From NCBI GenBank assembly GCA_033182465.1, contig CP137324.1, positions 1 through 64,000 of the forward strand: 64,000 nt of DNA. Direction: 5' to 3'. The position numbers and the translations under genes were made by a program. The notes beneath the pieces were generated by a model, which saw only the letters and a program-made list of their open reading frames with translations, was not told where the DNA came from and searched no databases. Positions 1 to 18,724 of the stretch are shown in pieces. Each line of letters begins with the position of its first letter. Positions within the stretch are counted from its first letter, which is position 1. Source of the DNA: Sanghuangporus weigelae (Eukaryota > Basidiomycota > Agaricomycetes > Hymenochaetales > Hymenochaetaceae).

Positions 1-170
1 CCCTAAGCCTAACCCTAAGCCTAACCCTAAGCCTAACCCTAAGCCTAACCCTAAGCCTAACCCTAAGCCTAACCCTAAGCCTAACCCTAAAGCCTAACCC
101 TAAGCCTAACCCTAAGCCTAAGCCTAACCCTAAAGCCTAACCCTAAAGCCTAACCCTAAGCCTAACCCCC
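1..170. repeat. Chromosome-end telomere of alternating hexamers
   Basis: The window begins with about 14 alternations of CCCTAA and GCCTAA, so the G-strand unit is TTAGGCTTAGGG (12 bp). A few units carry an extra A (CCCTAAAGCC). C-rich repeats reading inward from the first base are what a left chromosome end looks like. Most filamentous fungi and basidiomycetes have plain TTAGGG repeats, so the regular alternation is unusual. The same mixed unit occurs at three internal sites between 9.29 and 9.87 kb. Confidence 0.93.
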
Positions 171-622
171 AATAGTACTACTCTCATGGCATTTCAAGTT
201 AACCTCGTATTATTACTGTAGTAACATGTATAGCATGTGTCGTAATTCGGTTTCTGAATAGTATTGCTACTGGGTGTCCAATTGATTCATGTAAGCATCC
301 TATTCCACACTAATTTTTAATGCAAAGAGAATAGTACCACTCTCATTATATTCTGTGCTGAACTTGTAATGTTATTGCAGTAGTATCTTTCGCATGTATT
401 ATATCTCAGTTTCTGCATAATATTGCTATCAGGTGGTTGATTCATGCATGTAAGCATTCTATTCTGCACCAAATTTTAATCCAAAAAGAGAATGATATCA
501 CAATTATAATATTCAGATCTGACCTCATATTGTTATTACAGTAACATACATTGCACATATTGTATCTTGGTTTCTGCATAGTATCCCTACCGAGTGTCCG
601 ATTTATGCATTACAGTACAATG
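171..622. repeat. Three degenerate tandem copies of a ~160-bp subtelomeric repeat
   Basis: Units start near 171, 330 and 491. Each begins AATAGTA/AATGATA, then has a CTCRTATT-like block, a 'GTTTCTGCATAGTAT' block, a 'GTGTCCGATT' or 'GGTGGTTGATTCATG' block, and ends in a purine stretch before the next copy. The copies are clearly related but diverged. The sequence is AT-rich with no open frame. The third copy breaks off at about 622, where CSE1-like sequence starts. Confidence 0.75.
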
Positions 623-3030
623 CTTACCGAAGCTGCTCCTCTTCTATTGCATAGATAAGGAAATCCGGTGTCAGTCCTTCCACATCTATAGCCATCGTAA
701 AGAAGAAGAAATAGATCAACTAATATATGTAGTTGCCCATGCGAGTTGTCTATAACCGCATGCTTACCATGCTCTTCATGTAGTGGTCAAGTGCAGCGTC
801 AGAATGTATCGAACTATCGCTTCAAGCAGCTCAAGGCCCCACGTATTCTTGATTTTGACGGGATTAGTTTCTGCTGCACAACGGCTAGAATGTTTGTGAA
901 TTGTCGCGTGGTTGCTAATTCTGCGGCATCTGTACGCAAGAAAGCTTTTAGGAGGCAAATGAGACCAGGAATACTACTTTTTTGCGCCCAGCTTGACGGT
1001 TGAAGAAGGAATGGTAAAAGGGCCCGGTAATCGGCAGGAATTCCTCCGCGATGTAATTCTAGCATTTGCGAGATAATCTGGAACACGTAAGGAGTGAATT
1101 CTATCTGAGCAGTCAGTGTGCGGTCAGGAAAATCGCAGGGGTGGTGATGACTGACTGACAGTCGATGTCCTGTTGTGAGATAATCGTGAACGGTCCGAAA
1201 AGATTTTTCTCAAAGGTCGAAAGCGACGCCAGAGATGTTGCGACGGTAAACGTATACACAGGTCTAGTACGATTTGTACGGAATCTCCATGTCCACGTAC
1301 CTTATCAGAGCAGATACGGCTTCATATTGGTAAAATTTTGGATTGCTCGGACTCTTCGCGATTGCTCCAAGAACGTCAATCAAACATTGCAGAATATTTT
1401 GGTAGGTGGGGACGAGCGTCGTAGGGGTAGTAAGTATGACACGCATGACACCTACACGGAGTAATTCAGATGGAGCCGGAGGACAAAAGCCACACACGCA
1501 CACTTCATAAAGTAGTCATTTTCCGCAATCTTCTCCAGCGACCCGCCTGACTCGACTCTAGAAGGTACAGCTTTTAAAACTTCGCGAATGTCTTCTTGAT
1601 TAAATCTAGAAAGTCGTTGAGTGGAGATGCGGCGGTGGCGAGCAAAGTTTCTTACAGCAACTGGGAGTTGCACTTGATGACGAGGATCTGGTCGATAGTT
1701 GTTGCGGCGTACGTATACGTGACACAATCGGAAGAACCGAGTCGGCACAAGAGTGGAAGGACGGAAACAAGCTGTTCCTTTGTGAGCTGCATCAATCCCG
1801 TCAATGAGACTCTTCAAAGGTCAAGAGGTGCTTAATAAACCTGCCTGATTTCGAAAACAGTATAAGAAGCAAATCGAGTCGACTTGAACGATCGGATGCA
1901 CGGTGTCGGATTCGGCTTATAGGTCCTCGAACATGTTTCGTGAAAAGGAGTCTACGACGTGAACTAGAGCATTTGTGCTCGTCACTCCTTCCTGCGAGAT
2001 GATTAAAGAATGAGGGCAGCAGGTCGACAGAATAAAGCATCTTACCTGAGCGGCAGCTCCGAGCGTTGCGACAGCAGCGAGAAGATATACACTCTGGTCC
2101 TTCCGCTTCCAGCTATCTTCACCTCGCAGATCGCACGCGTACTCCCGTACGCCTAATCCGATCCATCGGAGAACAATTCCTGTCGTAACTGCAGCATATC
2201 CGCTTGTAACAAGGGCACGCAGAACATCTGCAGCGGCTTGGCGCCGTGTCGTTCCTCCTGCAGTCGGACCATCGGCAACTGCAGCCGAACTCGCACTAGC
2301 AAATGTGAGATCAAGACGCGCATATTCGAGAGCATCGTCTTCAAACTGCTCTACTTCATAAGTCCCCAGCGACACATTCGGCACGACAACACCTTCAGCA
2401 ACGCCATCGATTGTCTCTCGGCTCTCGAAAATTCCGCGATAATTCCCAGAGCGGATAGCCGTACTAAGAAAATGGAGTGACTGGCTTACGAGGCCATCAT
2501 AGGCGACCCCGGACCGCCGACCGCCACTCAGAAGACCCCAGAGAGCACGAACGAAAGCTTCAACTGAATTTGAGCTAATAAGCAGCTCCGGATACCGATG
2601 AGCACACGCTTCAACGAGCTGAAAAATACCGGTCTTTACTTGAGAAGAAACACCAGCCGTCGGTTCATCCGTATCAGTTTGCAGCTCAGGGGGGGTCCCA
2701 CAGAAGAAACCGGATGAACATCCCGTTTTCTGCGCCGAAGAACTCGGTATGAGCGACCTCAAGCGCTGGAGGGAGGTCCTGACACACAAGGTCATCGGAA
2801 ATCTTCAGGAGGACGACCATTGCTCGTGCAACAGTCTCCGTGTCTTTGCTCGGAGGCAATGGGCTGTCGAGGAACATCCCTGCAGTGTAACGGAGAAATT
2901 GTAGGAACGGTTCTGCAAACTGGGCCGGGACGAAGTTGATGACTGTGCATAACTCGTCAGTGCGCATCTCAGACCGCCATCGTCCAAATATAGAGTGCGC
3001 AGTTTCAAGAATTGAGAGATTGATTGCATA
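623..3030 (-). pseudogene. CSE1: CSE1/exportin-2 pseudogene, segment 4 (longest, nearest the telomere)
   Basis: Conceptual fragments on the minus strand follow the order of exportin-2 (importin-alpha re-export receptor, a HEAT-repeat protein of ~960 residues) from about residue 150 to about 710. From right to left: ETAHSIFGRWRSEMRTDEL (near 3000), a 292-residue open stretch (2795-1917) with IFQLVEACAHRYPELL, YDGLVSQSLHFLSTA and VTTGIVLRWIGLGVREYA, then PSNPKFYQYEAVSALIR (1340), MLELHRGGIPADYRALLPF (1070), and TMAIDVEGLTPDFLIYAIEE (~650). A retained GT-AG intron lies near 1990-2045, so this is a DNA-level copy, not a retrocopy. Frames are broken at several places and the last quarter of the gene is missing where the subtelomeric repeat begins. 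Identification rests on recalled CSE1 sequence and is firm for the family. Confidence 0.85.
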
Positions 3031-3575
3031 TGACGCAATTGGAAGAACCGAGATGGCGCAGGAGGAGTGGAAGAACGGAAACCTGCCTGATTTCAAAAAC
3101 AGTATAAGAAGCGAATCGAGTCAATTTGAAGGATCGGATGTACCGCGTTGGAATCGGCTTATAGGTCCTCGAACATGTTTCGTGAAAAGGAGTCTACGAC
3201 GTGAACTAGAGCATTTGTGCTCGTCACTCCTTCCTGCGAGATGATTAAAGAATGAGGGCAGCAGGTCGACAGAAGAGAGCATCTTACCTGAGCGTCGCGA
3301 CAGCAGAAGATATACACTCTGATCTTTCTGCTTCCAGCTATCTTCACCTCGTGGATCGGGCACGTACTCCTGTAAGCTTAATCCGATCCATCTGAGAACA
3401 ATATTGTCGTAACCGGAGTATATCCGCTTGCAACAAGGGCATGCGGAACATCTGCAGTGGATTGACGTCGTGTCATTCCTTCTGCAGTCAAACTGTCAGC
3501 AATCGCAGCCGAACTTGCATAAGCAAATGAGAGATCGAGACGCACACGTTCGATAGGGTCGTCTTCAAACCACTT
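3031..3575 (-). pseudogene. CSE1: CSE1/exportin-2 pseudogene, segment 3
   Basis: A short minus-strand segment covering about residues 290-430 of exportin-2. It includes a degenerate ERVRLDLSFAYASSAAIAD stretch (~3530), a retained GT-AG intron (~3240-3293) and the exon reading GVTSTNALVHVVDSFSRNM (~3230-3180), then a FLYCF stretch near 3110. It is joined abruptly on both sides: at ~3575 to residue ~640 of the next copy and at ~3035 back to residue ~150. The right-hand join is near TGACRTCTGTACGCAAG; the left-hand join is the same one seen near 5440. Frame breaks are present. Confidence 0.78.
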
Positions 3576-5440
3576 GTGAATTGTCCCGTGCCTGCTAATT
3601 CCGTGACATCTGTACGCAAGAAAGCTTTTAGGAGGCGAACGAGACTAGGAATGCTTCCTTTCTGCACCCCGCGTGACGATTGAAGAAGAAATGGTAAAAG
3701 CGATCGGTAATCGGCAGGAATTCCTCCGCGATGTAATTCTAGCATTTGCGAGATAATTTGGGACACGCCAGGAGTGAATTCTATCTGAGCAGTTAGTGTG
3801 CGGTCAGGAAAATCGCAGGGGTGGTGATGACTGACTGACAGTCGATGTCCTGTTGTAAGATAATCGTGAACGGTCCGAAAGATTCTTTTCAGGGTTCGAA
3901 AGCGATTCCGGAGACGTTGCGACGATTAACCTACACACAGGTCTAGTACGATTTTTGCAGAATCTCCGTGTCCACACACCTCATTAGAGCAGATATTGCT
4001 TTCAAATATATATTGGTCAAAATTTCGATTGCTCGGATTTCTTCGCGATTGCTCCAAGAATGCCAATCAAACGCTGCAGAAGTTTTTGATACATGGGGAC
4101 GAGCGTCGTAGGGGCAGTAAGTATGACACACATGACACCTACACGGAGTAATTCAGATAGGACCGGAGGACAAAAGTTGCACACGCACATTTCATCCGCT
4201 AGTCATTTTCCGCAATCTTCTCCGGCCACCCGCCTGACTCGACTCTAGAAGGTACGGCATTTGAAACTCCACGGACGTCTTCTTGATCAAACCTAGAATG
4301 ACGTTGAGTCGAGATGCGGCGATGGCGAGCAAAGCTTCTTACAGCAATTGGGAGTTGCGCTTGATGACGAGTATCCGTTGAACGATAGTTGTCGCAGCGC
4401 GCGTATAAGTGATGTAATCGGAAGAACCGAGATGACGCAGGAGGAGTGGAAGAACGGAAACAAGCTGTTCCTTTGTGAGCTGTAATGGTGGCGCCAGAGA
4501 GACTCTTCGAATGTCAAGATGTGCTTAAACAACCTACCTGATTTCGAAATAGTATAAGAAGCGAATCGAGTCGATTTGAAGGATCGGATGTACCGCGTCG
4601 GAATCGGATTGTAGGTCCTCGAATACATTCCGGAAAAAGAAATCTACAACATCAACCAGAGCATTTATGCTCGTCACAACTTGCTGCGAGATGATTAAAG
4701 AATGAGGGTAGCAGGTCGACAGAATGAAGCATTTCACCTGAGCGGTAGCTCCAAGCGTTGCGACAGCAGTGAGAAGATATACACTCTGATCTTTCCGCTT
4801 CCGACTATCTTCACCTCGCAGATCGCACGCGTACTCCCGTACGCCTAATCCGATCCATCGGAGAACAATTCCTGTCGTAACTGAAGCATATCGGCTTGCA
4901 ACAAGGGCACGCAGAACATCTGCAGCGGCTTGGCGCCGTGTCGTTCCTCCTGCAGTCGGACCGTCAGTAACTGCAGCCGAACTCGCACTAGCAAATGAGA
5001 GATCGAGACGCACATATTCAAGAGCGTCGTCTTCAAACTGCTCTTCTTCATGAATCCCCAGCGACGCATTGGGTACGACAACACCTTCAACAAGACCATC
5101 GACGGTCTCTCGGCTCTCGAAATCCCCTCGATCGTTCCCGGAGCGGATAGCTGTACTAAGAAAACGGAGTGACTGGCTTACGAGGCCATCATAGGCGAAC
5201 GCGGGAGGTTCTGGCACACAAGGTCATCGAAAATATTGAGGAGGACAACCATTGCTCGTGCAACAGTCTCCGCGTCCTTATTGGGAGGCAATGGGCTGTC
5301 GAGGAGCATCCCTGCAGTGTAACGGAGAACTTGTAGGGGCGCGAACTGGGCCGGGACGAAGTTAATGACTGTGCATAACTCGTCAGTGCGCATCTCAGAC
5401 CGCCATCGTCCAAATATAGAGTGCGCAGTTTAAGAATTGA
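3576..5440 (-). pseudogene. CSE1: CSE1/exportin-2 pseudogene, segment 2
   Basis: Minus-strand exportin-2 segment running from about residue 150 (MRTDELCTVINFVPAQF, ~5393) to about 640 (SLVRLLKAFLRTD, ~3640). The part encoding the PELLISSNSVEAFVRALW stretch, present in segments 1 and 4, is deleted: a fragment ending near DLVCQNLPRS runs straight into AYDGLVSQSLRFLSTAIRSG at ~5200. A retained intron is visible at ~4690-4738. A long open stretch (5217-4534) survives, but the middle (4.0-4.4 kb) is broken in several frames. It is ~90% alike by eye to segment 4 over shared parts. Confidence 0.82.
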
Positions 5441-6281
5441 GAGATTGATTGCATATGACGCAATTGGAAGAACCGAGATGGTGCAGGAGGAGTGGAAGAA
5501 CGGAAACAAGCTGTTCCTTTGCGAGCTGCAACAATCCCGTCAATGAGACTCTTCAAAGGTCAAGAGGTGCTTAATAAACCTGCCTGATTTCGAAAACAAT
5601 ATAAGAAGCAAATCGAGTCGACTTGAACGATCGGATGCACAGCGTCGGAGTCGGCTTGTAGGTCCTCGAATACGTTTCGTGAAAAGAAGTCTATGGCATC
5701 AACCAGAGCATTTGTGCTCGTCACTCCTTCCTGCGAGATAATCAAAGAATGAGGGCAGCAGGTCGACAGAAGAGAGCATCTTACCTGAGCGTCGCGACAG
5801 CAGCGAGAAGATATACACTCTGGTCTTTCCGCTTCCAGCTATCTTCACCTCGCAGATCGCACGCGCACTCCCGTCCACCTATTCCGATCCATCGGAGAAA
5901 ATTTTCTGTCGTAACTGCAGCATAACCGTTTGCAACAGGGGCACGCAGAACATCTGCAGCGGTTTGGCGCCGTGTCGTTCCTTCTGCAGTCCGACCGTCA
6001 GCAATCGCAGCCGAACTCGCACTAGCAAATGTGAGATCAAGACGCACATATTCGAGAGCGTCGTCTTCAAACTGCTCTACTTCATGAGTCCCCAGCGACA
6101 CATTCGGCACGACCACGCCTTTAACACCGCCACTCAGAAGACGCCAGAGAGCACGAACGAAAGCTTCAACTGAATTTGAGCTAATAAGCAGCTCCGGATA
6201 CCGATGAGCACACGCTTCAGCGAGCTCAAAAATATCGGTCTTTATTTGAGAAGAAACACTAGCCGTTAGGTGATTCATCCT
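5441..6281 (-). pseudogene. CSE1: CSE1/exportin-2 pseudogene, segment 1 (joined to SAC3)
   Basis: Minus-strand exportin-2 segment covering about residues 200-430. It starts at the SAC3 junction (~6281) with VSSQIKTDIFELAEACAHR, lacks the YDGLVSQSL block after RALWRLLSGG, continues through EQFEDDALEYVRLDLTFAS, KDQSVYLLAAVATLR, a retained 48-nt GT-AG intron (~5740-5787) and the exon with TNALVDAIDFFSRNVFEDL, and ends at ~5440, where LLLHHLGSSNCV passes directly into the residue-150 region of segment 2. The N-terminal ~150-200 residues of exportin-2 are absent from the whole array. Confidence 0.82.
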
Positions 6282-7325
6282 TTCCTCTTTGATCGTCGTA
6301 GAACTCCTTCAGAGACAGCAGAGCTTTTGCAGACGTAAAGATTCAGACAACAAAGTGGTGACAAGGTCGAGGACTCACAATTCATAAGCCGCTGGACCTC
6401 CAAAGCTCGATCGAACGTAGGTACGTCGTATATGAGATGGAGTGAAAGGATTTGAAAACGTGTGCATTGTTCGTGACACTCGATAGCTATTGGTCCGCTG
6501 TCTTGCTGAATCGTGAAATCGTTGCGTACAGCTCGAGAGCGATCCCGGACAAATGCCTGAGTCTCCGCGAAGCCACCTCTTGGAATGAGGTCATGGAAGA
6601 GGTAGTCGAGAGTTCCGAAAGTCTAACGCCCGCAAGCAAAATAGCAAAGTCATAAGTGCAGCTTAAAGTCAACATCATTCAGGAGTTAGCATGGACGCAC
6701 GCATTCCCATTTATCAAGGTTGTTCTCCCATTCTCGCCGGTAGCGTTCGAATTCGGGACGCATCTCTTGACAGGTTCCGACCATAGTGATAGCTTCCTCG
6801 AGTCGTTTCGGTTCGTCGGTTCGTCCATCTTGCCTTCACATACGGCTCGAGCACGTTCTTCTTCCCGCGCCTTGAAAAGCTAAAGTTCACGAAAGCAGTA
6901 TTCAGCAAGCACAATAATCAAAGAAACGTGTAGCACGCACTCCTTCCCATGTCTTTCCAGTACCGTTCGACATAGGAGGAGCAGGTGTCGACAAGCGCGA
7001 AGGACCTGCGTCGGAAGCTGAAGCAGCACCGTCATCTTCGTCCTCCGTTGCATTTGTCGGGGGCACAGCGCTATATGAACTGTGCCCATTCACACCCGCA
7101 TTCGCTCCTCGTTCACCCCTCACTCTCGCTGAGCTTCCGCCTCTCCCTTTCTCCCATCTCCCGTCCGGTGCAGGCGACGGGCGTCTAGTATCACTCACCC
7201 AGGTCTTGTTCTTTGAATGAGAAGGTGTGGTTCCACCTCGGTCGCCCTGCACAATCGTCGCCGTCGCCCGAATCTTTTGGGGTGCAGGCGCGCCGCCGTG
7301 CTTCGCCGGTGCGTAGACGCATCCT
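6282..7325 (-). pseudogene. SAC3: SAC3/GANP-family mRNA-export protein, 5' fragment
   Basis: Minus-strand fragments match the start and the first part of the SAC3/GANP domain of the nuclear mRNA-export (TREX-2) scaffold. From right to left: a low-complexity N-terminus (7252-6902, with SHSKNKTWV and a Ser/Ala/Asp-rich tail), a likely intron, then MDEPTKPKRLEEAITMVGTC-QEMRPEFERYRREWENN (~6820-6710), TLDYLFHDLIPRGG, AFVRDRSRAVRNDFTIQQ, IAIECHEQCTRFQILSLH (~6620-6480), and LSLKEFYDDQRGK (~6310) after a GTGAGT...AG intron. The linker between WE and LDYLF is degenerate and the Cys usual in the GTCQDMCPE motif is Arg. The fragment stops inside the SAC3 domain and is fused to CSE1 at ~6281. Intact copies of both genes would be expected elsewhere. 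Confidence 0.8.
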
Positions 7326-7441
7326 GCACGTCACGATGAGAACGTGGACCAGCGTTTATGACTACGATTTCTACTTGCAGGCTCACACGCGCAGACAAGC
7401 AGGGCTCTATATGTGATCGTGGGAACATCTTCAAAAAACTC

Positions 7442-7457
7442 GGATGCGTACGCATCC
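7442..7457. repeat. 16-bp perfect palindrome at the edge of the G-run array
   Basis: GGATGCGTACGCATCC is fully self-complementary and lies directly beside the start of the G-rich minisatellite. It may mark a break or rearrangement point between the SAC3 fragment and the retroelement; no function is evident. Confidence 0.7.
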
Positions 7458-7690
7458 ACAGCCCGGGGGGCACAGCCTGGGGGGGGCACAGCCTTGGGGG
7501 GGGCTGGGGGATGCACAGCCCTGGGGGGGGCACAGCCCTGGGGGGGTGCACAGCCCTGGGGGGTGCACAGCCCTGGGGGGTGCACAGCCCTGGGGGGTGC
7601 ACAGCCCTGGGGGGTGTTGCCTAAAAAGGGTGGAGATAACCTAAGCACATTACCCAAAGAGGGAGGGGGGCTGTTTAGGGTGGGCTGGGG
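7456..7690 (+). repeat. G-run minisatellite (GGGGGGTGCACAGCCCT-like units)
   Basis: About nine head-to-tail units of 14-19 bp, each a run of 6-8 G followed by (T)GCACAGCCCT, fill 7456-7616; the last four units are nearly identical. A looser G-rich tail with GGAGGGGGG and GGGCTGGGGGG follows to about 7690. The plus strand could form G-quadruplexes. The proline-rich open frames on the minus strand here come from the repeat itself. It separates the SAC3 fragment from the retroelement. Confidence 0.85.
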
Positions 7691-7720
7691 GGCCCTTCCT
7701 AAAGAGGCAGGAGCCCCAGG

Positions 7721-9022
7721 ATGTTGACCAAGATCCCAGGAGGAATATATATAGTGTACGACATGTATATTAACCATTATTGGCAACAAATGTTAGACAA
7801 TCGCGAACCTACGTTTTTCGTAAAAGAACAACAAGAGTTCTTTAAACACGCTCTTTATTGTGCTAATACCGATCTTGTATTGCAATTTCAAGAACAGTTT
7901 TACCTTCAAATTCGCGGCCTCGCAATGGGTGTCGCAGACTCACCGGATCTTGCTAATTTATTCGGTTGGTTCTTTGAAAGTAAAGCTAACATTCTTACCC
8001 ATCCGTCAATTCCATTTTACGGAAGGTACATCGACGACTGTCTTGCACTAGTATATGCTGATAGCGAAACTGAAGCATGTAATCTCGTCAGCAGTCTTAT
8101 AAAGTTCGATGGTTGCACTATTGAATGGTCCGCGTCTGCCTACGGGCAACCCTTCCTTGACATGTATATTTATAGAGACCATTATGGTCTTCTCCAACAC
8201 ATGCCATACCGCAAAGCACGGAACCATCAAGAAAGAATTCCATTCATATCACATCACCCAATGGATGTCAAAAGAGGTACCTTTATTGGCGAAATGTCGC
8301 GATTAGCCACACTCAGCAGTACATGGTCACATTACTCTGATGCACTTCACGGATTAGTCTCCTTATATGTGCAACGTGGCTACCCGCGTGAACTTGTTAT
8401 GTCATGGCTTAAAAATAATATCCAAGAACGATGGCAAAATCGGATCTCTTCCAATGGTCCTAAACGGGAGCCCGCAAACGTTCTTGTTCTCAAATCAGAA
8501 TATAACATGGTCTGGAATTACTTTTCAGCTACAGAATTATCAAAAACTATCTTCGGATACTGGGTCGAGTGGCTCGAAAGAGCCGAACGATGTGAACCTT
8601 ATAATATAGAGTTCCCAGCACCGATGTCGTTGGTTGGTGATGATATCTCAGGGTCTACGGCCGCCTCTACGGGGGTTCGCAATGCGACTGGGACGGAGCA
8701 AATCTTCGTACCTGACGTGCGTAAGCTAGATATCCTTAACCGGAGAATCCTTGTCTCACGAAAACGAACAAGGAATTTATTTGATCTCGCATCATTATGG
8801 AAAAAGACAGTTTTTGAACACTTGGATGAGTTAGTAGCCAAGGACGAAGGAGGGATAATGGAAACAGACCCTCCTCCCGCTATTATCGCTAAACCCTCCA
8901 ATACTAGTATACCTCCTGGCACGCCGCCCCGACGAAGGGCTGACGGTAAGCCGATCGAAGACGGAGACGAAATTATTATTGGACGGGCCTCACCCAAAGA
9001 CAACTCTACAGCTTGGCGATGA
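7721..9022 (+). CDS. Penelope-like reverse transcriptase, C-terminal part
   Basis: The open frame of 433 codons carries RT palm motifs: RGLAMGVADSPDLANLF (residues ~65-81, motif B-like), FYGRYIDDCLALV (~99-111, catalytic YIDD), then GQPFLDMYIYRD and the Penelope-typical FISHHPMDVKRGTFIGEMSR region. A thumb-like and linker region follows, and a hydrophilic tail ends in SPKDNSTAWR. The N-terminal fingers and motif A are absent, so the visible ATG is probably not a genuine start but the first Met inside a 5'-truncated copy. No endonuclease domain follows. The enzyme would copy RNA primed from an exposed telomeric 3' end; this copy cannot do so alone. Confidence 0.82.
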   Translation: MLTKIPGGIYIVYDMYINHYWQQMLDNREPTFFVKEQQEFFKHALYCANTDLVLQFQEQFYLQIRGLAMGVADSPDLANLFGWFFESKANILTHPSIPFYGRYIDDCLALVYADSETEACNLVSSLIKFDGCTIEWSASAYGQPFLDMYIYRDHYGLLQHMPYRKARNHQERIPFISHHPMDVKRGTFIGEMSRLATLSSTWSHYSDALHGLVSLYVQRGYPRELVMSWLKNNIQERWQNRISSNGPKREPANVLVLKSEYNMVWNYFSATELSKTIFGYWVEWLERAERCEPYNIEFPAPMSLVGDDISGSTAASTGVRNATGTEQIFVPDVRKLDILNRRILVSRKRTRNLFDLASLWKKTVFEHLDELVAKDEGGIMETDPPPAIIAKPSNTSIPPGTPPRRRADGKPIEDGDEIIIGRASPKDNSTAWR

Positions 9023-9293
9023 AAAGCAGGTGTGTAGGTGAACTACAGACTCCTCATAGTAAGGGCATGGGTCACCCGAAACGTGTGAGCGACGAGGTGA
9101 GCCGTATTTATGCATTTGTTAATTGTTGTTGAGTTACCGGATCTAGCCGTCAGTAGGTAAAAATACCCTCCGAGCGCCGTTAGAGAAGGAAGAGTAAATC
9201 TCTGTGTATTCTGTAGGACAGTCACATTCAGTCGGTAGGTACTACGGTACTATTTCGTTACGGTTTTATTAATCGTGGTCTTTTAGAGCCCCC
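7721..9293 (+). mobile_element. 5'-truncated Penelope-like (Coprina/Athena type) telomeric retroelement
   Basis: The open frame encodes the distal half of a Penelope-type reverse transcriptase, and no GIY-YIG endonuclease domain is visible after it. Endonuclease-lacking Penelope elements of this type (Coprina in basidiomycetes, Athena in rotifers) are known to sit at telomeres, with the 3' end joined to telomeric repeats. The geometry here fits: the sense strand runs away from the chromosome end, the truncated 5' side faces the telomere, and the 3' side abuts telomere-like repeats at 9294. About 270 bp of 3' untranslated sequence follows the stop. It is a broken, truncated copy. Confidence 0.82.
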
Positions 9294-9320
9294 AAGCCTA
9301 ACCTGAACCTAAGCCTAACC
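9294..9320. repeat. Interstitial telomere-like tract 1 (3' junction of the Penelope element)
   Basis: AAGCCTAACCTGAACCTAAG-type sequence, in the same orientation and the same CCTAA/GCCTAA mixture as the chromosome end, immediately follows the 3' untranslated part of the Penelope element. It is degenerate, four to five units. Confidence 0.75.
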
Positions 9321-9380
9321 GTATGTACTATACTTAATCGTATATAAGTCAATTATTCTGACATGTTCTTGATATCCTTA

Positions 9381-9410
9381 GCTAATCCTAACGCTAAGCC
9401 TAACACCTAA
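9381..9410. repeat. Interstitial telomere-like tract 2
   Basis: GCTAATCCTAACGCTAAGCC followed by TAACACCTAA: a decayed telomere-like tract, same orientation as the end. Sixty bp of unrelated sequence separate it from tract 1. Confidence 0.6.
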
Positions 9411-9842
9411 CTCCTAGAGGTGCTAACCCATGTTTTGATAGTGCGTGACATACACTGTCAGGTGATTCCATTAGATTACGTAACTCGGATCAAATCGGAC
9501 ATCACTCAGATCTGCACCGGCATGATAGGATCAAGATCCGATCACAAACCCGTGATCGGAAAAAGGTACGCGGCCTTACTAAGTGTTTACACTGACGATA
9601 TTACGTTTCGGCCCGTTCACATGACAGCACGTGATGCTCCAACCAATCGGAAAGATCGGTGAGTAATAATTTTTGACAACTGACTGACTAACCCCGACTC
9701 CGACACGGAGCGGACTGACTAACATGACTGACTAAGTACAGCCTGACGAGCCTTATAAAAAGGCGAAATTGGAGGTGTGTGTTCCCCCACTCACCAATAG
9801 CTGATTAGTCTTTTAGCTCGCTTTTGGGATATTTGCTTCACC
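9411..9842 (+). other. Sequence between telomere-like tracts; likely 3' remnant of a second Penelope-type insertion
   Basis: This 430-bp block is bounded on both sides by telomere-like tracts. It holds an 80-codon open frame (9420-9662) with no recognisable family, GACTGACTAA repeats at 9680-9737, and a hammerhead ribozyme. Hammerhead ribozymes are known in Penelope-like elements, which together with the tract on its right suggests a heavily 5'-truncated element. It shares the short string GTCTTTTAG with the end of the first element (9279-9287 and 9808-9816), which is weak support. Confidence 0.5.
9730..9810 (+). ncRNA. Type-I hammerhead self-cleaving ribozyme
   Basis: All core elements are present in order. 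Stem I 5' strand GACTAA-gta-CAGC (9730-9742); core CTGACGA (9743-9749); stem II GCCT/AGGC (9750-9753 with 9761-9764) closed by TATAAAA; core GAAA (9765-9768); stem III TTGG/CCAA (9769-9772 with 9794-9797) closed by a 21-nt loop, plus the A-T pair next to the core (A9768 with T9798); cleavage triplet ATA, so the cut would follow 9799; stem I 3' strand GCTG-a-TTAGTC (9800-9810). Stem I pairs 4 + 6 bp around an asymmetric internal loop. Every helix is perfectly complementary. Open stem I and closed stems II and III make it type I. It ends 33 bp before telomere-like tract 3. Confidence 0.85.
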
Positions 9843-9873
9843 GCCTAACCCTAAAGCCTAACCCTAAGCCTAG
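9843..9873. repeat. Interstitial telomere-like tract 3
   Basis: GCCTAACCCTAAAGCCTAAC followed by CCTAAGCCTAG: near-perfect copies of the terminal unit, including the CCCTAAAGCC variant seen at the chromosome end. It is the best preserved internal tract and the innermost one. Confidence 0.85.
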
Positions 9874-10593
9874 ACGCACGCTATGTCGAAGTGAAGGTAA
9901 GTAGAATAGAAAGACAAGGAGACGAAGGAGTCAATCTAGTTACTTATATACACTTTGAACGTGTGAAAGGTCTACTCTAATAAGGAATCACATAATGAAG
10001 GAATGGAGTGATTAGTGAGTGTCTTAGTCGGAAGGAACAGATTTAGTCATGGTGAATGAGTAAGGATGAATAAGCCATGACGGAGTGAACGGGATTAGTA
10101 AAAATGGATGAGTAATGTAAAAGAAGAATACTAAAATGAATGATGACGTAGTAAAAGAAAAGGAAAATGTTCAAGTCCTAACAAGGACCATGTAAACTCG
10201 TGCACAGACTTGACAGTGCTGAAATGCCAGTGAGGTCTCCATAAACCTTATTAGCCTTTAGCCTTTTAGTGTTTAGGCTTTAGTAGTTGTGCTTCTGGAC
10301 TTCTAAGAAGTTTGATCGCTTCTTTTGATTGAGGTCGCTCTGGTTGCTTGGTCGGCGGCGTTAGAGTGGTAGTCCGCAGTAATAGGCGGTCGGTGGTATT
10401 AGCTGTTAGCGGGATTACGTATCCGCTTCAGTACTTCTAGCGCTCGGGTGGTAGCGGGTTACTGTTGCCTAGGCCGCTCGATCGCTTGGGCCCGTGATAG
10501 CTGGCTTGGTTACTGGTCGCATTTGGAAAGCTGATCGTGTGGATCTGCTGATTGCGTCGATCCTGATGCGAGATTTTGAGCGGATCCTTTCAA
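9874..10593. other. No gene seen
   Basis: No open frame or family resemblance. The sequence has many ATGAATGA/GGATGAATAAG-like purine stretches (9960-10180) and TTTAGCCTTTTAGTGTTTAGG around 10255-10276, which is faintly telomere-like on the other strand but too weak to call. Confidence 0.5.
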
Positions 10594-10921
10594 TATGCCA
10601 ATGTGGCTGGCTTGGCATGTCCTGGGTCCCATGCACAAGTGTCCACGAATCGGGGACACTTTCTGCACGAGAGGAAGGACATGCCAATGTGGCTGGCTTG
10701 GCATGTCCTGGGTCCCATACACAGGTGTCCCCGAATCGGGGACACTTTGCTTGAGAGAGAGGCCATCTCAGCTTATTTTAGTATGTCCTGCCTCCCATGA
10801 CCAGGTGTCCCTGAATCGGGGACACTTTTTCTGAGAGGGAGGCTATCTCAGTGAATTTTGGCATGTCCTGCTTCCCATACACAGGTGTCCCCGAATCGGG
10901 GACATTTGACATGCTCAACTG
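10594..10921 (+). repeat. Four-copy ~82-bp minisatellite with palindromic core
   Basis: Units begin at about 10594, 10681, 10765 and 10845. Each has a (G)GCATGTCCTGSSTCCCAT block, then CACAGGTGTCCCCGAATCGG and GGACACTTT, then a GAGAGGGAGGCC-like tail. The centre is an inverted repeat (GTGTCCCCGA / TCGGGGACAC, one-base spacer) that is perfect in units 2 and 4 and has one change in the left arm in units 1 and 3. The open frames that cross it are periodic and have no independent support. Confidence 0.85.
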
Positions 10922-11031
10922 TCTTATGCTGAAGTGTCCGGATTATCCAGACAGCCAGGCAGTAGCCTCAGAGCCTGGTCTGTCTCCTCTGAAGTCCAAC
11001 CCTACGACCCTACTCAATTTCACCTTCAACC

Positions 11032-11310
11032 CTACTCCCTAACACTGATGCCTCTGACTTCAAGTGTACAGTACAACCAATGTGTTAGATTTATATCAAG
11101 TTGGGATAGACAGAATAACTGGTAACAAAGACTAGGATTTATGATCAGCAGGGTTTTTGGCGAAGCCGAAAACACAAGTTGCTGGTTACATGGATTCAAC
11201 AGATTCCACCTCACGGGGTTTTCCTGATGTATAATAAACAACCCGTCTGTTCTACCTTGGGCACAGATGAAGATGGTCAAAGTAGCGAGAACGTGAAGTA
11301 AGCTGACCAT
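11032..11310 (-). CDS. Possible small secreted protein (unrecognised)
   Basis: From the ATG at 11310 the frame gives 92 residues. It begins MVSLLHVLATLTIFICAQGRT-, a plausible signal peptide with cleavage near residue 19, followed by a short Asn/Leu-rich mature part with three Cys. No family is recognised. The frame continues upstream without a stop to 11433, so the start is chosen only for the signal peptide. It could be chance coding. Confidence 0.25.
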   Translation of the reverse strand: MVSLLHVLATLTIFICAQGRTDGLFIIHQENPVRWNLLNPCNQQLVFSASPKTLLIINPSLCYQLFCLSQLDINLTHWLYCTLEVRGISVRE

Positions 11311-12392
11311 TTTGATCCTCCGACCATAGCTCTGATCTGTCTCGGCATTCAGGAAACAGTGGGTGTCAGGAGACAACCATGTTACGAGTCGTCCTATTGA
11401 TTTTTGATCATGAATTGAAGATATTGATGTCATTCCGCTATAACGTTATGCCTGTGATGATGCACAAGTACTTTACTTTTAATCTTCTGACTCTGTTTAT
11501 TGTATTGATGGTTTTAAATTGTATCAACTTTGTCTCTTCTCCTTGCATACGTATGTACAGAGGTCGAGGAAGAGTAGACGGAATGTCTCGGGTGGTATGT
11601 ATAGAAGGAGATGTGATATCATGTGAGATTGAACAGGAACAGTCTTGCATATTCACCATTCAGCACGACTAGAACAACAAGCATATCTTCATCTGCATCG
11701 ACTGTTACCGGGAGGCTTCGGTGAATTTGATTCTATGTCCAACGATGGATTGCTTTACGGCACCCACGGGTACCATACGAACGGAGCTTGCGGAAGTGTG
11801 CCCGAAGTCAAAGTTGCGAATCTTATTGACTTCGACATGTCTTTCGATGTATGATTCCGAAGGGAGCCTTATAATCGACACCCGAGATGCGCTCGCAAGC
11901 TTTTGCTCGAATCAGGCCATCCCAACGATAGACCTCTCGTACGTATGTTCCTTTCGGACAGCGGAGGATGACGTCATTAAAAGTCGGAAACCGGATTCAT
12001 AGATCAAATACATAGAAAACACTAGGAGGGAGAAGCATCAAAAGCGAAGGAATCAAACAAGGTAGAAAGTGATCATGGCGAACAAAGCTCATTATAAGGC
12101 GCGTGACGTGAGATAGTTTGCAATCAAGATGCGAGATGGAATAAACAATGCAGTTGCGTGTGGAATCAGAGCGAAACGAATCAAAACGACAAGACGCGTA
12201 AAACCAGGCTACGCGCATCGAAACGAAAGGAGAAAAATGTAAGTTTGGCGCAAGCACCGAAGGAACAGATGGCTAAAAAAAAAAAGGAAGATCGCCGACA
12301 AAGATCGGCAGATCACGTTTATTCATCCATAGATCACTCTAAATAATGAGATGTCAGACCCTCTTCTGCAACGCTTTATAGGGCCCACAAAC
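11311..12392. other. No supported gene
   Basis: Short open frames on both strands (for example 11379-11672 plus and 11997-12257 minus) show no domain, no splice pattern and no resemblance I recognise. A poly-A run lies at 12276-12286. Confidence 0.45.
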
Positions 12393-13296
12393 TCACCCTC
12401 GCGAAGTGGTAGTTACTGGTTGGAAGTCTACTCTGCCCGCTTCCGTGTAACGAGCAAGAATGTCAGCCCAGTCTTCTCGCGCATCCCACGCGATTCGACT
12501 CGGGGAGTCGCATTCCACAGGCATAACCTGGCTCATGCCACCTGATTGAACGAGGATGACCGCGGTGCCAATGCCGCCACTCCGACGGCAACGCTCTTCG
12601 CGACGATGGATGTCTTGCGTGACGAGTGGGTCGTAGGACTCGACGAGCGAGCGCTGGACGATGCGCACGGAAGAAACTGTAAACCTACATAAACAATGCG
12701 AAGGAGTCAGGAATGAGACAGGGGAATCAAGTTCGGAGTGACGTACCTCCGTGCCGGGTCGGAGTGACTTCGATACTGCAATTCCACGTGCAAAGCGAGG
12801 GAACGAATGTTTGCCGGGACGCGACGGAGCTGGAGGGCCTGGAATGCTGCCCAGTTCAGTAGTGTTTGATGTGCCGAGACGAACTTTCGTAGGTTCTTCG
12901 CAATGACTTCCTCGGACAAGGATTCGCCCACAGAAGCATGGTCATGCTTTGCCGAGGTAAGTATGTCCGAGGTATGTTGGCATATGGCCTTGTGAGATGG
13001 CCAGTGGCGCTTCTGGCATTCTTGGGAGCAATACTAAACGTAGGGAAGAAGGTTTGAGTAAATGGCAGGCTTTGGAAAAATGCGGAGTGGGAGACATCGG
13101 AAGCGTCGGAAAGAGGCGAGCGTGGACGTACTTGAGTGATCATGCAACCACCGCACATACGGAAACGCTGACCAGACTGTTCGATAGTTCCGCAGGTGTC
13201 ACAGACGCGGTGTCCTCGGGGCTTGGCATACTGGTGCGAGTACATTGAGGGCGTCGGGTTGGCATAGTAAGAGGTCGCGGAAGCAACGGCAGCCAT
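12393..13296 (-). CDS. MYND-type zinc-finger protein
   Basis: Three exons on the minus strand (13296-13132, 13033-12747, 12684-12393) give 247 residues; the exon sum (744 nt) is in frame and both introns (98 and 62 nt) are GT-AG. The MYND finger lies near residues 34-75: CDTC, then CGGC across the first intron, then YCSQECQKRHWPSHKAIC, giving the C4-C2HC ligand set. A C-terminal region of ~170 residues (VSAHQTLLNWAAFQALQL, VMPVECDSPSRIAWDA) resembles the lineage-expanded MYND proteins of Agaricomycetes. MYND fingers bind protein partners; the target here is unknown. The first gene inward from the telomere that looks intact. The start at 13296 is the first Met of the open frame. Confidence 0.8.
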
Positions 13297-15795
13297 TGTT
13301 GCGGAGGAAGTGAGTCAGGCTGGATAGACAAAGGGTCGAGGTAGCGACGGATGCAAACGCAGATGAGTCGAGACAAAAGAGGGAGGCCCGAGCGGAGGAG
13401 ATGTGAGCCATCCTAGTCAGAAAAATGGAGGACTTTATAGTCGCAAGGCGTCTGGGAGAGGAGAGGCGGGTATTCATGGACCCTGATCAGGCAATGGCAA
13501 AGGAAAGAAGAGTCTGACTGACGAGCAGTCGACGTAAGCATCGTATCATCGTATCGTATCTCGCGAAGGGCGCCTTGAAGGAATTAGCCCGCGCCGCCGA
13601 GCGCCAAATCCTCCTCCTGGAGAGTCCAATTGTCGAATACCGTACCCGTCACGGTCTAGTTTCCGTCTCTTGTCTCCAAGGGTAGACCGAATACAATTGT
13701 GTTTTTTTGTTATGCATACCGAAGAAGCTGATGGTATTCGAATGCTTTTTGTCTCTGAGGACGGACGAGAGAGCACAGTACAGTCCAGTAGCTTTGCACA
13801 AACAAACAATAGCGATGCGATGGGCACAGACAAAAGGACCAAGTCTGGCAATATCAACGACCTCCCGTATATTCCCACGACTCCCTGGTCACCCTTCATT
13901 GAATTCATTCGAAGCTCTGCATTTCATTTCCTCCATCTTGCATGTAACTTTCGCTTTTTCTTTTTTAGCAAACACGTTTCATCGTGAATGCTTGCATCTT
14001 CAGATTCAGTCCGCCTCGAGGCACTCCTCAGCTCGTCAATCGGTTCGGGTAAACCACCTCTCCAAGAGTCCCTGCAACACAAGACCGCATGAATCCCAAA
14101 CGCGTGCTCAAAGTGAACTATTTATTCATTCAGAGCCTGCAGCGAGGCGAGGCTTCCTCGAATCGATTCTAATCACTCCAATTCAATCTTTCTTTTCTCT
14201 GCCGATGTCGCCGATGTCTTCGGGGGCCCGCACCCGGTACTCGTGCTGACTAATCTTCTCGTGCTTTTGTCTTGAGACTTCGTCGTTGCTATTATTCCCC
14301 AGAACAATTGTAACTTGCGCTAGCCGTTTCTTCGATTCTTTCATTTTTTAATTATCGCTCTTCAGTCTCGAGATTCGGTACCCTCCAGGGAACTGATCCT
14401 TTCCTTTTTGGCTACTTCTTTCCGAAGCAACCTTCCCAATTGTCTTGTCCGTCTGCCATGTATATATCACGTCTTGGTCTACTTAGCAACGAGGAAATTG
14501 GGTTAGTTACGTTCCTTCTTTACCGCCGGAAGTGCTCTATATGTATGGACCTTTTGTGGTGCAAAATAATAAGCCTATCTTTAAAGGTAGCGCTTAAACG
14601 CTGAAACACCCAGGAAACCCTCCACGGTGATAACTCTATTCTCTTAAACGCCGATCCGTTCCTTGTCCCGGTCTTCTGGTCTTCCATTCCTCTTTACAGC
14701 ATCAGCAAAGGTTGAGATCGGCCAATAGATACATTTCTTCTTTCGAATCCGTAGTGCTGCGGACGAAACAGACGAATTACTGCCGGACGCCAGGATGTTA
14801 ATCACAATCGTGATGGCCTTTTGGTATGAACCTGGATTGTACGTTTTCCCTTTTCTGAGCAGATAGTCTTCTTGTCTTATCGCGGCTCGAGCAGAAACAG
14901 TTTCGTATTTGATGGGTAACCTCGTCTCAAGAAAGTGGCGACATCTGCTATCTGGAGTATTGTTCAGATCTTGTTCAAACCAGGCCCTATAAGGACCCTG
15001 ATTGAATCTATTGCTCGTGAACGGAATTTCAGACGCAGGAGAGCGTCTATCTATAAAACAAGAGCGCCCTAGTCAAACAAGAGCAAGCAAAGATTCTTCC
15101 GATTATTGTAACGCCTGCGCCAAGAATACTCAATTTCAATTATAGAGTCCCCTGTACGAATGACCAAACAAACTCTGAGTCTGAATCTTCTACAACCGAC
15201 CAGATCGATTCACGAGCGCCTGAAGCGCAAGAGCATAGGCGGAACTATCTTCCGACGTTGTCTGATAGATTCTAGCGCATCTTTTTCATCAGGTTGTTAA
15301 ACTCCCTTTAGTCAGTCTTGATTGAAAACTTACAATCACGCATCAATCGATTCGAAGCAGCGGGACACGTGTTGAACAGTTATGCATATCGAGTTCAAGA
15401 CGCTGTAAAGCGATGCTCGATGTACTCACCAGTGCTTGATGACTCCAAATCGAGTTATTACCGCATCAATCCAAGTAACGCCAACTTACGGCGTCTAGCA
15501 GCTACACTTTGTTTTTAGCATCCGGCTCCCACCGCTAGTACATCAGCTATTGGATTGATTGGTCCTTACTTCCACTTATCGCCCAGACAAGGTGATGATG
15601 ACATTAACGTGAAATCCATGAATTGCTTCTAACTAAGTCGATCCGTTGAGAGATAATGCGACACTGCCCGTATAATCATTACTGCATACGCCTATACTCC
15701 TGATTGGGATTCTCGTGCGCATCATACTAGTTCGATCATAATGATTGGGGCAGTTTCGTTACTCAAGATATCTGCCATTACTTAGTCAGCGGAGA
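13297..15795. other. 2.5-kb gap without a supported gene
   Basis: The frames 13546-13908 (minus) and 13707-14249 (plus) overlap each other, lack domains and start in ordinary sequence. From 14250 to 15317 there is no sizeable frame on either strand. A pyrimidine-rich stretch at 13880-13980 looks like leader or intron sequence. Nothing else is visible. Confidence 0.45.
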
Positions 15796-16140
15796 CTATT
15801 TAGGTCCTTCGTTTCTTGACAAGGATAAGTGCTTCCAGACATGATACGCGGAACGTCGGGTCCACCTGCCGAAACCATAGCGCAAGCGCAAAGGAAGTTG
15901 GCCTGTGACGAAAGGGAGAAGGAGGATCTTGCCGACAGCTAGTATGCAGTTGACACCGATATTTATACTTGTCCAGAAGAGCTCGCTCCATGAAGAGGAG
16001 GGTCGCGCGCCCGGCTGGTGCATGAGATCCATATTGTCTGGTAGGAGGAAGGGCAAGTATCTTCCCTTGCCCATGCTCAATCGCAAAATGAAGATCCCGA
16101 TAAGAGCTACATTGATCCCAAAGAACAGGAGAAATGCCAT
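15796..16140 (-). CDS. Possible membrane-protein fragment (unrecognised)
   Basis: The frame from the ATG at 16140 gives 114 residues with two hydrophobic segments: AFLLFFGINVALIGIFIL (residues 2-19) and INIGVNCILAVGKILLLPFV (about 59-78), then an Arg-rich tail. A second frame of the same strand (VDPTFRVSCLEALILVKK) continues more naturally after QLPLRLRYGFG, which hints at an unseen splice or frame change near 15860. Upstream, MPLSENDITFEEVDQDTLIL (from ~16336) could be a first exon. No family is recognised. It may be a decayed gene. Confidence 0.3.
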   Translation of the reverse strand: MAFLLFFGINVALIGIFILRLSMGKGRYLPFLLPDNMDLMHQPGARPSSSWSELFWTSINIGVNCILAVGKILLLPFVTGQLPLRLRYGFGRWTRRSAYHVWKHLSLSRNEGPK

Positions 16141-16402
16141 GCTCGACGAAAGTTTGCGTAAGATATAAATGGTCTGCGAGTGCTGGAGAACCTACAGTTT
16201 GTCCCAGATGGACGTTCTGTCCATATGCATGATGAACATTCCTCGTTTTCCTACTCAATGCCGATCCAATAAACGTAAAATCAGGGTATCCTGGTCTACC
16301 TCCTCAAATGTGATATCGTTCTCCGACAAAGGCATTGCGGACCTGGAAAAAATCAAGTGCTCGCGGACGACAGAATCAAACGTTCGCGAGGGGGTGTTCT
16401 AG

Positions 16403-18724
16403 CATTTCTTATCGGCCCCGTCGGGTTCGTGTGCTGGGGCTAGCCCAAATGTTTAATACGACCTGTCATTGTCCAGGCACATTTGTTCATAAGCGGAACA
16501 AACGATGAAACAGGCTCGGAGGGCGTCCAACGCATCGCCCAAAGGGTAGAGCCTAGAGGTATTCATCGCGCTCAACGATTACCCGATGTGGTCAAAATCC
16601 GAGTGAATGAATACCATTTAGTGTTCCCTCGAGATTGTAATTAAAACGTGAAGGCTGGACTCGAATACTGCTCATATTCAGGCTATCTGTCGGGTGTGAT
16701 TGATCACCTTTCAGTATATTGATTTGCATCCCAACAGGATCGGCGTCATGGTGGGCCGAGTCTTGAGGTAGCAACTGAACGATGAATAAACTTATTCTAC
16801 ATTCAGTATTACGCTAGCGTGGAGAGTGATCAGAAGAAATTTGACCTACTAGGCAATTACCAATCGAACGAGGCGAATGGAGTGGCTATCCTGTATCCAA
16901 ACTTAGAAGCTAAATTGAAGCGCTTTATGAGGCGCCACGTATCACTTCCAGATCGTAACGGAATAATGACAAGTATGAACGTCGTTCAGTGTCTTGCGTC
17001 TTCGAGAGTTCTGGGGAAGCTATGCTTCAGAACAGAATCAGATTGGCATTAAGGAGTTATCCATCTCATCACGCCCCGAGATCAGGATGGCATCCTTTCA
17101 TGATTGGCTATCAAATAAAAGAGCGAGATATAGAGTGGATTGATGGCAGTGATGAAATTGAATGAAGGCCATGTGGGGCTGCCAGTGGATAGCCTTTTCA
17201 ATGGCAAATGCGATGCACGATGCACACAGAAGCAGAAATTTACGAAAAAATGTTCTCGCCACACCAAGGAGAGGAGAGGCTCAAGGAAAGCAGTCGACGA
17301 CGAATCTGATTGATTCATGAATAGAATACAAAGCTCCACTCACTCGTGCTTATCAAGAACTCTCGGTCAGACAACTAAGTCAGGTTGAGAAGCGTTTGGA
17401 GATGAGGTATTGTACTTACAGACGAGTTAGTTTTTCGCAGCCATCAGAGGCAGTGTCGACGATGCCGTCTTTCGACTTCTTCGAGAATGGCAATGAAGCA
17501 ACACAGCTTCCAGGAAGGACGGCATATGAGCAACGGCGGTGCAAAGAGCGCAAAAAACTTTTTCTATATCCAGTTGTGCGTGTACTGTACGGTAAAATAG
17601 GTTTTTGATCACGTGCCCAGGAGATTGGAGACGCCGATCACTATTTATTTAACTTTACGTTATACATTGTTGGTGCGCTGGTGTCACAAGGGCCTACTAA
17701 CTTTGATCTCCTTCCTCTTCTCACCTCCCACCACCTCCATCTTTTCTCATTTTCGTCGTATTGCCCGGACGAAAGGTGATGATACTCCTCTGTTAAATGC
17801 TGAAGCTAGAACTGAAGTCAACGCGTCTCTCTTCAGGTACTGGAATACGGCTCCTGTAAATATTCTGGCGGGTCCGTTCTTGTCGCAAGTACTCGAACTT
17901 TGTCCTCCGTCGTCGTCGGAGAGTCTTAAATTACTGCCAGTCCAGTCGGCGCCTCTCCCTGGCTTCCAACTCATCTTCGTCGACCTTACCTCACCTCTTT
18001 TCAGACTCTAAATTGAATACGGGTACGTGTCTCTGACTGTTCCCCGTTTCTTCCTTCATTTCCAGCTACTCATCTTTCCTTACCTTCAGAAACCTGACGC
18101 GGCCGGAGCTTATCAACCAACATACTCATCTAGGAAGACACGCTTCCTGCTTTGGCAAAGCAGTGAAGGGGAGAGAAAGAAATCGCCTGCCTCGTGTCGA
18201 AGCTCATCTTCGTCCGGCGCTGTTGTGAATGTCAGTGTCATTTCTCACAAACAATTCGTTGTTAACGAGCTTTCTTCGCGTCTGCCAATCTTCCATCAAT
18301 TTTGTTGGTGTCGTACCTTTTCCATGCGATCAGACTACGAGTCGACGCTGTGGCATTGCTTCCCTCCCTTCGGCGAATTCTTAAAGCCGTAAAGGCGTGC
18401 TAGTGGTGGGAATCCGTGTCGCTTCCCAATTGTAAGCGGTCTTTTGCTTTGTTTCAGATATAGAATACTTTTGCGCGGATGCTAGAGTGGATCAAGGGCC
18501 TTGTATTGACAAACGGTCTCTTTGTCAGACTTTCGACTGATACTAATCTCAGGCAACCTTAGGAACCTACTCAGGTGCTCATAACATAGCACAGAATCGT
18601 ACAGGGTGCCGATTCGAAATTGCTACGCTACGATTCGGAGCTAAGGTTCGTTGTTTCAACGGTTCATCGTCCTGTTCGACGCGAACAGCCAATTGACAAG
18701 GTGCTGCAGGAAGACTTTGGTGTG
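16403..18724. other. Gap before the Zn2Cys6 gene; pyrimidine-rich leader
   Basis: From 16.4 to 17.6 kb there are only short frames without support. From ~17.7 to 18.45 kb the plus strand is rich in CT blocks (CTCCTTCCTCTTCTCACCTC, CCCCGTTTCTTCCTTCATTT) typical of fungal promoters and long 5' leaders with introns, and probably belongs to the transcription-factor gene at 18725. Confidence 0.45.

Follow-up and report, generated by a model that had tools for sequence, protein, structure and literature searches.

A complete type I hammerhead consensus between a reverse transcriptase fragment and an interior telomere tract near a fungal chromosome end

The window, that is, the whole 64-kb stretch of DNA that we analysed, begins with a terminal telomere array at 1-168 (+), which is built of the 12-mer unit CCCTAAGCCTAA rather than plain CCCTAA. 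The gene content is fungal and includes Zn2-Cys6 and fungal-specific transcription factor domains. Immediately inside the array, two diverged direct repeats (~71% identical, offset by ~160 bases) occupy 171-610. At 894-6266 (-), a gene region resembling CSE1 (importin-alpha re-exporter) is present in several diverged copies, in blocks that are ~82-96% identical; Pfam Cse1 was matched by three frames of this region, one of which also matched yeast Cse1 in the PDB. At 37711-39636 (+), a soluble fumarate reductase-like frame is separated by a single stop from the cytochrome b5 domain that follows it. The tRNA scan returned none.

The frame at 7703-9022 (+) is predicted to encode a reverse transcriptase (RT) fragment, as judged from its translation, tblastn matches to bacterial RTs and a profile score. 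The frame is open from 7703 and similarity to RTs starts near 7.8 kb. Its translation contains RGLAMG-x3-SPDLAN, followed by YIDD 27 residues past SP. None of the earlier RT motifs was found upstream, and therefore this copy looks 5'-truncated near 7.7 kb. By its motifs the enzyme is a putative Penelope-type RT, with AMG in place of QG and a thumb pattern of FLD, YRK, HP, KRG and GYP. A G-rich 17-bp minisatellite (CACAGCCCTGGGGGGTG) lies at 7457-7616, immediately 5' of the truncated frame.

When 72,556 plasmid records were searched by tblastn with the residues encoded by 7757-8719, 10 places were returned at E <=10. Seven of them are annotated as reverse transcriptase (six group II intron, one Drt3a), and the remaining three, including the best match (E 0.005), carry no annotation under the match. 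All 10 cover, at least largely, the SP...YxDD part. Six of the 10 plasmid records were taken for a profile, in which five RT proteins were aligned and the unannotated one was left out. This bacterial RT profile matched the window protein over 74 columns with a probability of 79.1 and an E-value of 1.6e-05, which is optimistic because the profile members were picked by similarity to that same protein. The RT frame scored 45.0, compared with 22.4 for the next of 85 window frames (stop-to-stop, at least 120 codons, throughout the window) and 27.6 for the best of 100 shuffles; the rank among the 85 frames is a fairer measure than the E-value, yet it carries the same selection bias.

Other searches with the fragment gave little. 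No Pfam family matched the RT frame at the thresholds used, and at E <=10 three RT pieces stayed unmatched while the C-terminal piece gave one weak DUF. The PDB sequence search returned no RT chain, and its two weak isomerases were rejected as unrelated. A pattern search for relatives picked out 2 stretches from viral_contigs as well as 8 from genome_contigs, but tblastn confirmed none of them; the RT signature pattern had no match in viral_contigs, and tblastn against phages gave 3 weak places, none with an RT annotation. A single-sequence structure prediction of the fragment (mean pLDDT 38.9) was set aside. In the rest of the window, no RT family was matched at E <=0.001 in six frames of 18001-64000, searched as 90 chunks (36, 30 and 24). 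No GIY-YIG endonuclease was found in the plus-strand frames of 1-9002 or in six frames of 8701-18401, in a copy that is itself 5'-truncated; the minus strand of 1-8700 was scanned via its four frames of at least 150 codons.

Just 3' of the RT frame are three interior telomere tracts, all C-strand and within 600 bases of each other. They were the only interior tracts above background in a C-strand repeat scan (200-base stretches, 100-base steps), in which the next stretch scored 22 and simulation (30 sequences of 20 kb) reached at most 21; the opposite strand gave no score above 19. Two degenerate tracts, at 9291-9323 (+, score 36) and 9382-9410 (+, score 41), lie in the interval between the RT frame and the ribozyme motif described below. 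The third (GCCTAACCCTAAAGCCTAACCCTAAGCCTA; 9843-9872, +, score 53) lies 3' of the motif, and two stretches within the terminal array match it at 100% identity. This orientation is the one that would be expected if the 3' end of an element had been joined to an older chromosome end. About 0.7 kb inward of the third tract, an 80-bp unit is repeated in tandem ~3.7 times (10598-10904).

On the same strand as the RT frame, and 0.7 kb downstream of it, a complete type I hammerhead consensus was found at 9730-9812 (+), where 83 bases were read base by base. Stem I consists of a distal helix (GACTAA 9730-9735 with TTAGTC 9805-9810) and a proximal helix (CAGC 9739-9742 with GCTG 9800-9803), thus 4+6 pairs interrupted by an asymmetric GTA/A internal loop. 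The core CTGACGA (9743-9749) is followed by stem II (GCCT 9750-9753 with AGGC 9761-9764), which has 4 pairs and a possible fifth, T-A. The GAA at 9765-9767 leads into stem III (ATTGG 9768-9772 with CCAAT 9794-9798), which has 5 pairs and is capped by a 21-base loop. H17 is A9799, and the predicted cut falls at 9799|9800. The conserved positions are all present (CTGACGA, GAA, the A15.1-U16.1 pair and H17 = A), and the motif has the features of type I: the core CUGANGA...GAA(A), an NUH cleavage triplet, an open stem I, and loops that close stems II and III. The internal loop of stem I could serve as a contact partner of loop II.

An earlier note on this DNA had described a hammerhead here with perfect helices and a complete invariant core, next to an internal telomere tract. 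The base-by-base check found each element where that note had placed it, with Watson-Crick pairing in 19/19 counted pairs and every core base present, and 32 bases separate 9810 from the start of the tract at 9843. The observation made in the note is confirmed at the level of the consensus. The GACTAA arm of stem I is present three times on the plus strand (9686, 9717 and 9730), so that TTAGTC at 9805 has alternative upstream partners; TGACTGACTAA is found at 9681 and 9725.

Taken together, a Penelope-like element, endonuclease-deficient and 5'-truncated, was probably joined to the end of a fungal chromosome, and the motif is probably the hammerhead at its 3' terminus; this reading is drawn from a single copy in the 64-kb window. 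We likewise regard it as probable that the RT and the ribozyme form one unit. The earlier proposal of a telomere-targeting element is borne out to this extent: an RT fragment lies upstream on the same strand, and the tracts are oriented as they would be for a 3' end joined to a chromosome tip.

Alternatively, two units may be stacked here, which we consider rather unlikely. The RT element would then have its end in a telomere tract at ~9290. The ribozyme would belong to a separate, more truncated unit at ~9411-9842 that ends on the tract at 9843; even so, it would mark the 3' terminus of a telomere-attached element, although one of unassigned family. Two degenerate C-strand tracts do separate the RT from the ribozyme, and published telomeric elements are described, in the sections of a review available to us, as head-to-tail arrays truncated by short telomere repeats (PMC6431247). 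However, the outer junction of such a stack is expected to be the younger one, but it is there that the more degenerate tracts lie (scores 36 and 41 vs 53). Moreover, the RT unit would be left with no ribozyme of its own, since 9001-10300 contains no second hammerhead even when one core mismatch is allowed with helices of 3/3/3 pairs; under these settings the motif is still the sole match, where 0.005 to 0.01 would be expected.

It is improbable that an ordinary telomeric element lies here next to a chance likeness of a hammerhead, or next to a structure that has decayed and is inactive. In favor of this explanation, no Rfam model accepted the motif: Rfam 15 gave no hammerhead over the whole window at the gathering score or at E <=5, nor in the segment 9000-10200 at E <=10. 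The covariance-model check proposed in the earlier note thus came out negative, with the best score, from the Hammerhead_3 model on a 91-base input, at 16.6 bits against a cut-off of 48.5 and covering 9725-9774 only; these scores are uncalibrated against known Penelope hammerheads. We give this negative result little weight because every position of the hammerhead consensus is present. The segment is unusually stable when folded (z-score -3.37; 0/200 shuffles as stable). Its minimum-energy fold (-24.9 kcal/mol) differs from that of a hammerhead and pairs part of the core; it is better by 3.2 kcal/mol than the hammerhead fold with the core kept unpaired (-21.7 kcal/mol), under an energy model that includes no tertiary contacts.

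Pattern counts argue against chance. Over its two strands the window contains a single match to the core when the helices have at least 3/3/3 pairs, and simulated windows (first-order Markov sequences built from the window) gave 4 matches in 150, or 0.027 each. The strict hammerhead pattern was found in 0 of 150 and 0 of 600 simulated windows, even though it leaves the distal helix of stem I uncounted. In addition, the intact core and the uninterrupted Watson-Crick pairing speak against long decay, and the motif sits where such elements carry hammerheads. A search of viral_contigs with a hammerhead-half pattern gave 1 stretch, which was rejected as the bases between its core and GAAA form no stem II.

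Hammerheads occur in fungal viruses. That a retrozyme-like or virus-derived hammerhead was inserted here independently of the RT is nevertheless very improbable: a stable helix III is reported for invertebrate retrozyme hammerheads in the text available from PMC7761336 and PMC7229834, but the motif is not embedded in tandem repeats of a few hundred bases and no second hammerhead motif is present in the window.

Returning to the Penelope-like element as a single unit, we infer both that the RT and the ribozyme belong together and that the chromosome end primes synthesis. The element RNA would have the order [RT]-[hammerhead]-[CCCUAA-type repeats]. Its C-rich tail may anneal to the G-strand overhang, such that reverse transcription would be primed by the 3' end of the chromosome. 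An early stop of synthesis would leave a 5'-truncated copy whose 5'-to-3' direction points away from the telomere. The ribozyme would most likely cut element transcripts that do not serve as templates, such as read-through or excess RNA, and its fold may also keep the C-rich tail separate.

The position of the predicted cut bears on this role. The cut at 9799|9800 lies 43 bases 5' of the tract start at 9843, and upstream of the C-rich tract, so that the coding RNA would lose its tail and the tail would go to a separate downstream piece. The copy runs 43 bases beyond the cut into the tract, and thus, if it arose as one unit, its template was probably uncut or religated. The earlier note had suggested that self-cleavage trims the RNA to define the end of the template; this is not supported, since a cut 5' of the tract detaches the tract and the inserted copy extends across the cut. 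In the portions of the work at hand on a lizard Penelope element, insertion in vitro was unchanged by ribozyme mutants, with unprocessed RNA as the main substrate (PMC11167929). In a review, as far as its accessible text goes, the Terminon authors suggest that cleavage is auxiliary for template preprocessing (PMC6431247), which is also the view taken in the earlier note. The geometry of cut and tract in the window copy casts doubt on the simplest form of such preprocessing.

We tentatively raise a speculative reading, which we regard as doubtful, that the full-size hammerhead of a fungal telomeric retroelement acts by itself as one unit and that its cutting would detach the element's own telomere-annealing tail, as a brake that decides whether the RNA serves as message or as template. 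If true, this would be the opposite of the suggested template-preparing role. Telomere-attaching Penelope-like elements are relatives of telomerase. If active, the window copy would be a self-contained, full-helix hammerhead in a fungus, and for simple trimming its cut is on the wrong side of the tail that pairs with the telomere. It would then allow a test of whether the ribozyme promotes or restricts the joining of such elements to chromosome ends. The role of PLE/Terminon hammerheads is called unknown in the part of PMC7761336 that we could consult. The titles and abstract openings searched contain no mention of a hammerhead from a telomeric Penelope-like element of fungi, although an earlier report may exist.

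Known systems resemble the window element in different respects. With the type I invertebrate retrozymes it shares a hammerhead of type I whose helix III is stable (PMC7761336, available text), whereas retrozymes are short tandem repeats in many copies, which were not found around the window motif. Poseidon of Anolis carolinensis also has a hammerhead within a Penelope-like element; unlike the window element, it carries a GIY-YIG endonuclease, and its hammerhead, which overlaps the beginning of the frame, required protein for cleavage in vitro (PMC11167929, in the sections at hand). The fungal endonuclease-deficient Penelope-like elements, namely those of the Coprina type and the putative telomeric family of Mycosphaerella graminicola, share an RT without an endonuclease as well as 3' telomere repeats and a direction away from the telomere (PMC4522978 and PMC3846280, excerpted text). 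A 2013 paper, in its accessible portion, states that the Penelope-like elements of fungal genomes are exclusively endonuclease-deficient (PMC3846280). By contrast with the window element, a hammerhead goes unmentioned for both in the excerpts of these papers (PMC4522978, PMC3846280).

The closest arrangement is that of the Terminons/Athena of bdelloid rotifers, where the available sections of the review describe the same order of RT, hammerhead and reverse-complement telomere repeats at the 3' end, as well as 5' truncation and a location at chromosome ends (PMC6431247); this order is restated in the text seen of PMC12477314. Several differences remain. The host is fungal rather than a rotifer, and the repeats are placed 'immediately downstream' in Terminons (PMC6431247), whereas a 32-base spacer is present here. 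No accessory genes were seen near the truncated window copy: exonuclease, esterase and Rep families were absent from the domain matches in the frames scanned over 1-18401, in a copy truncated near 7.7 kb, and we therefore do not file the window element as a Terminon. PLE/Terminon hammerheads are reported, in the portion consulted, to be minimal and to lack helix III or loop-loop interactions (PMC7761336), whereas the window motif has a helix III of 5 pairs. The order of the parts of the window element has already been described in rotifers; what sets it apart from the published cases is the full helix III and the fungal host, and we regard the window element as a variant of a known arrangement.
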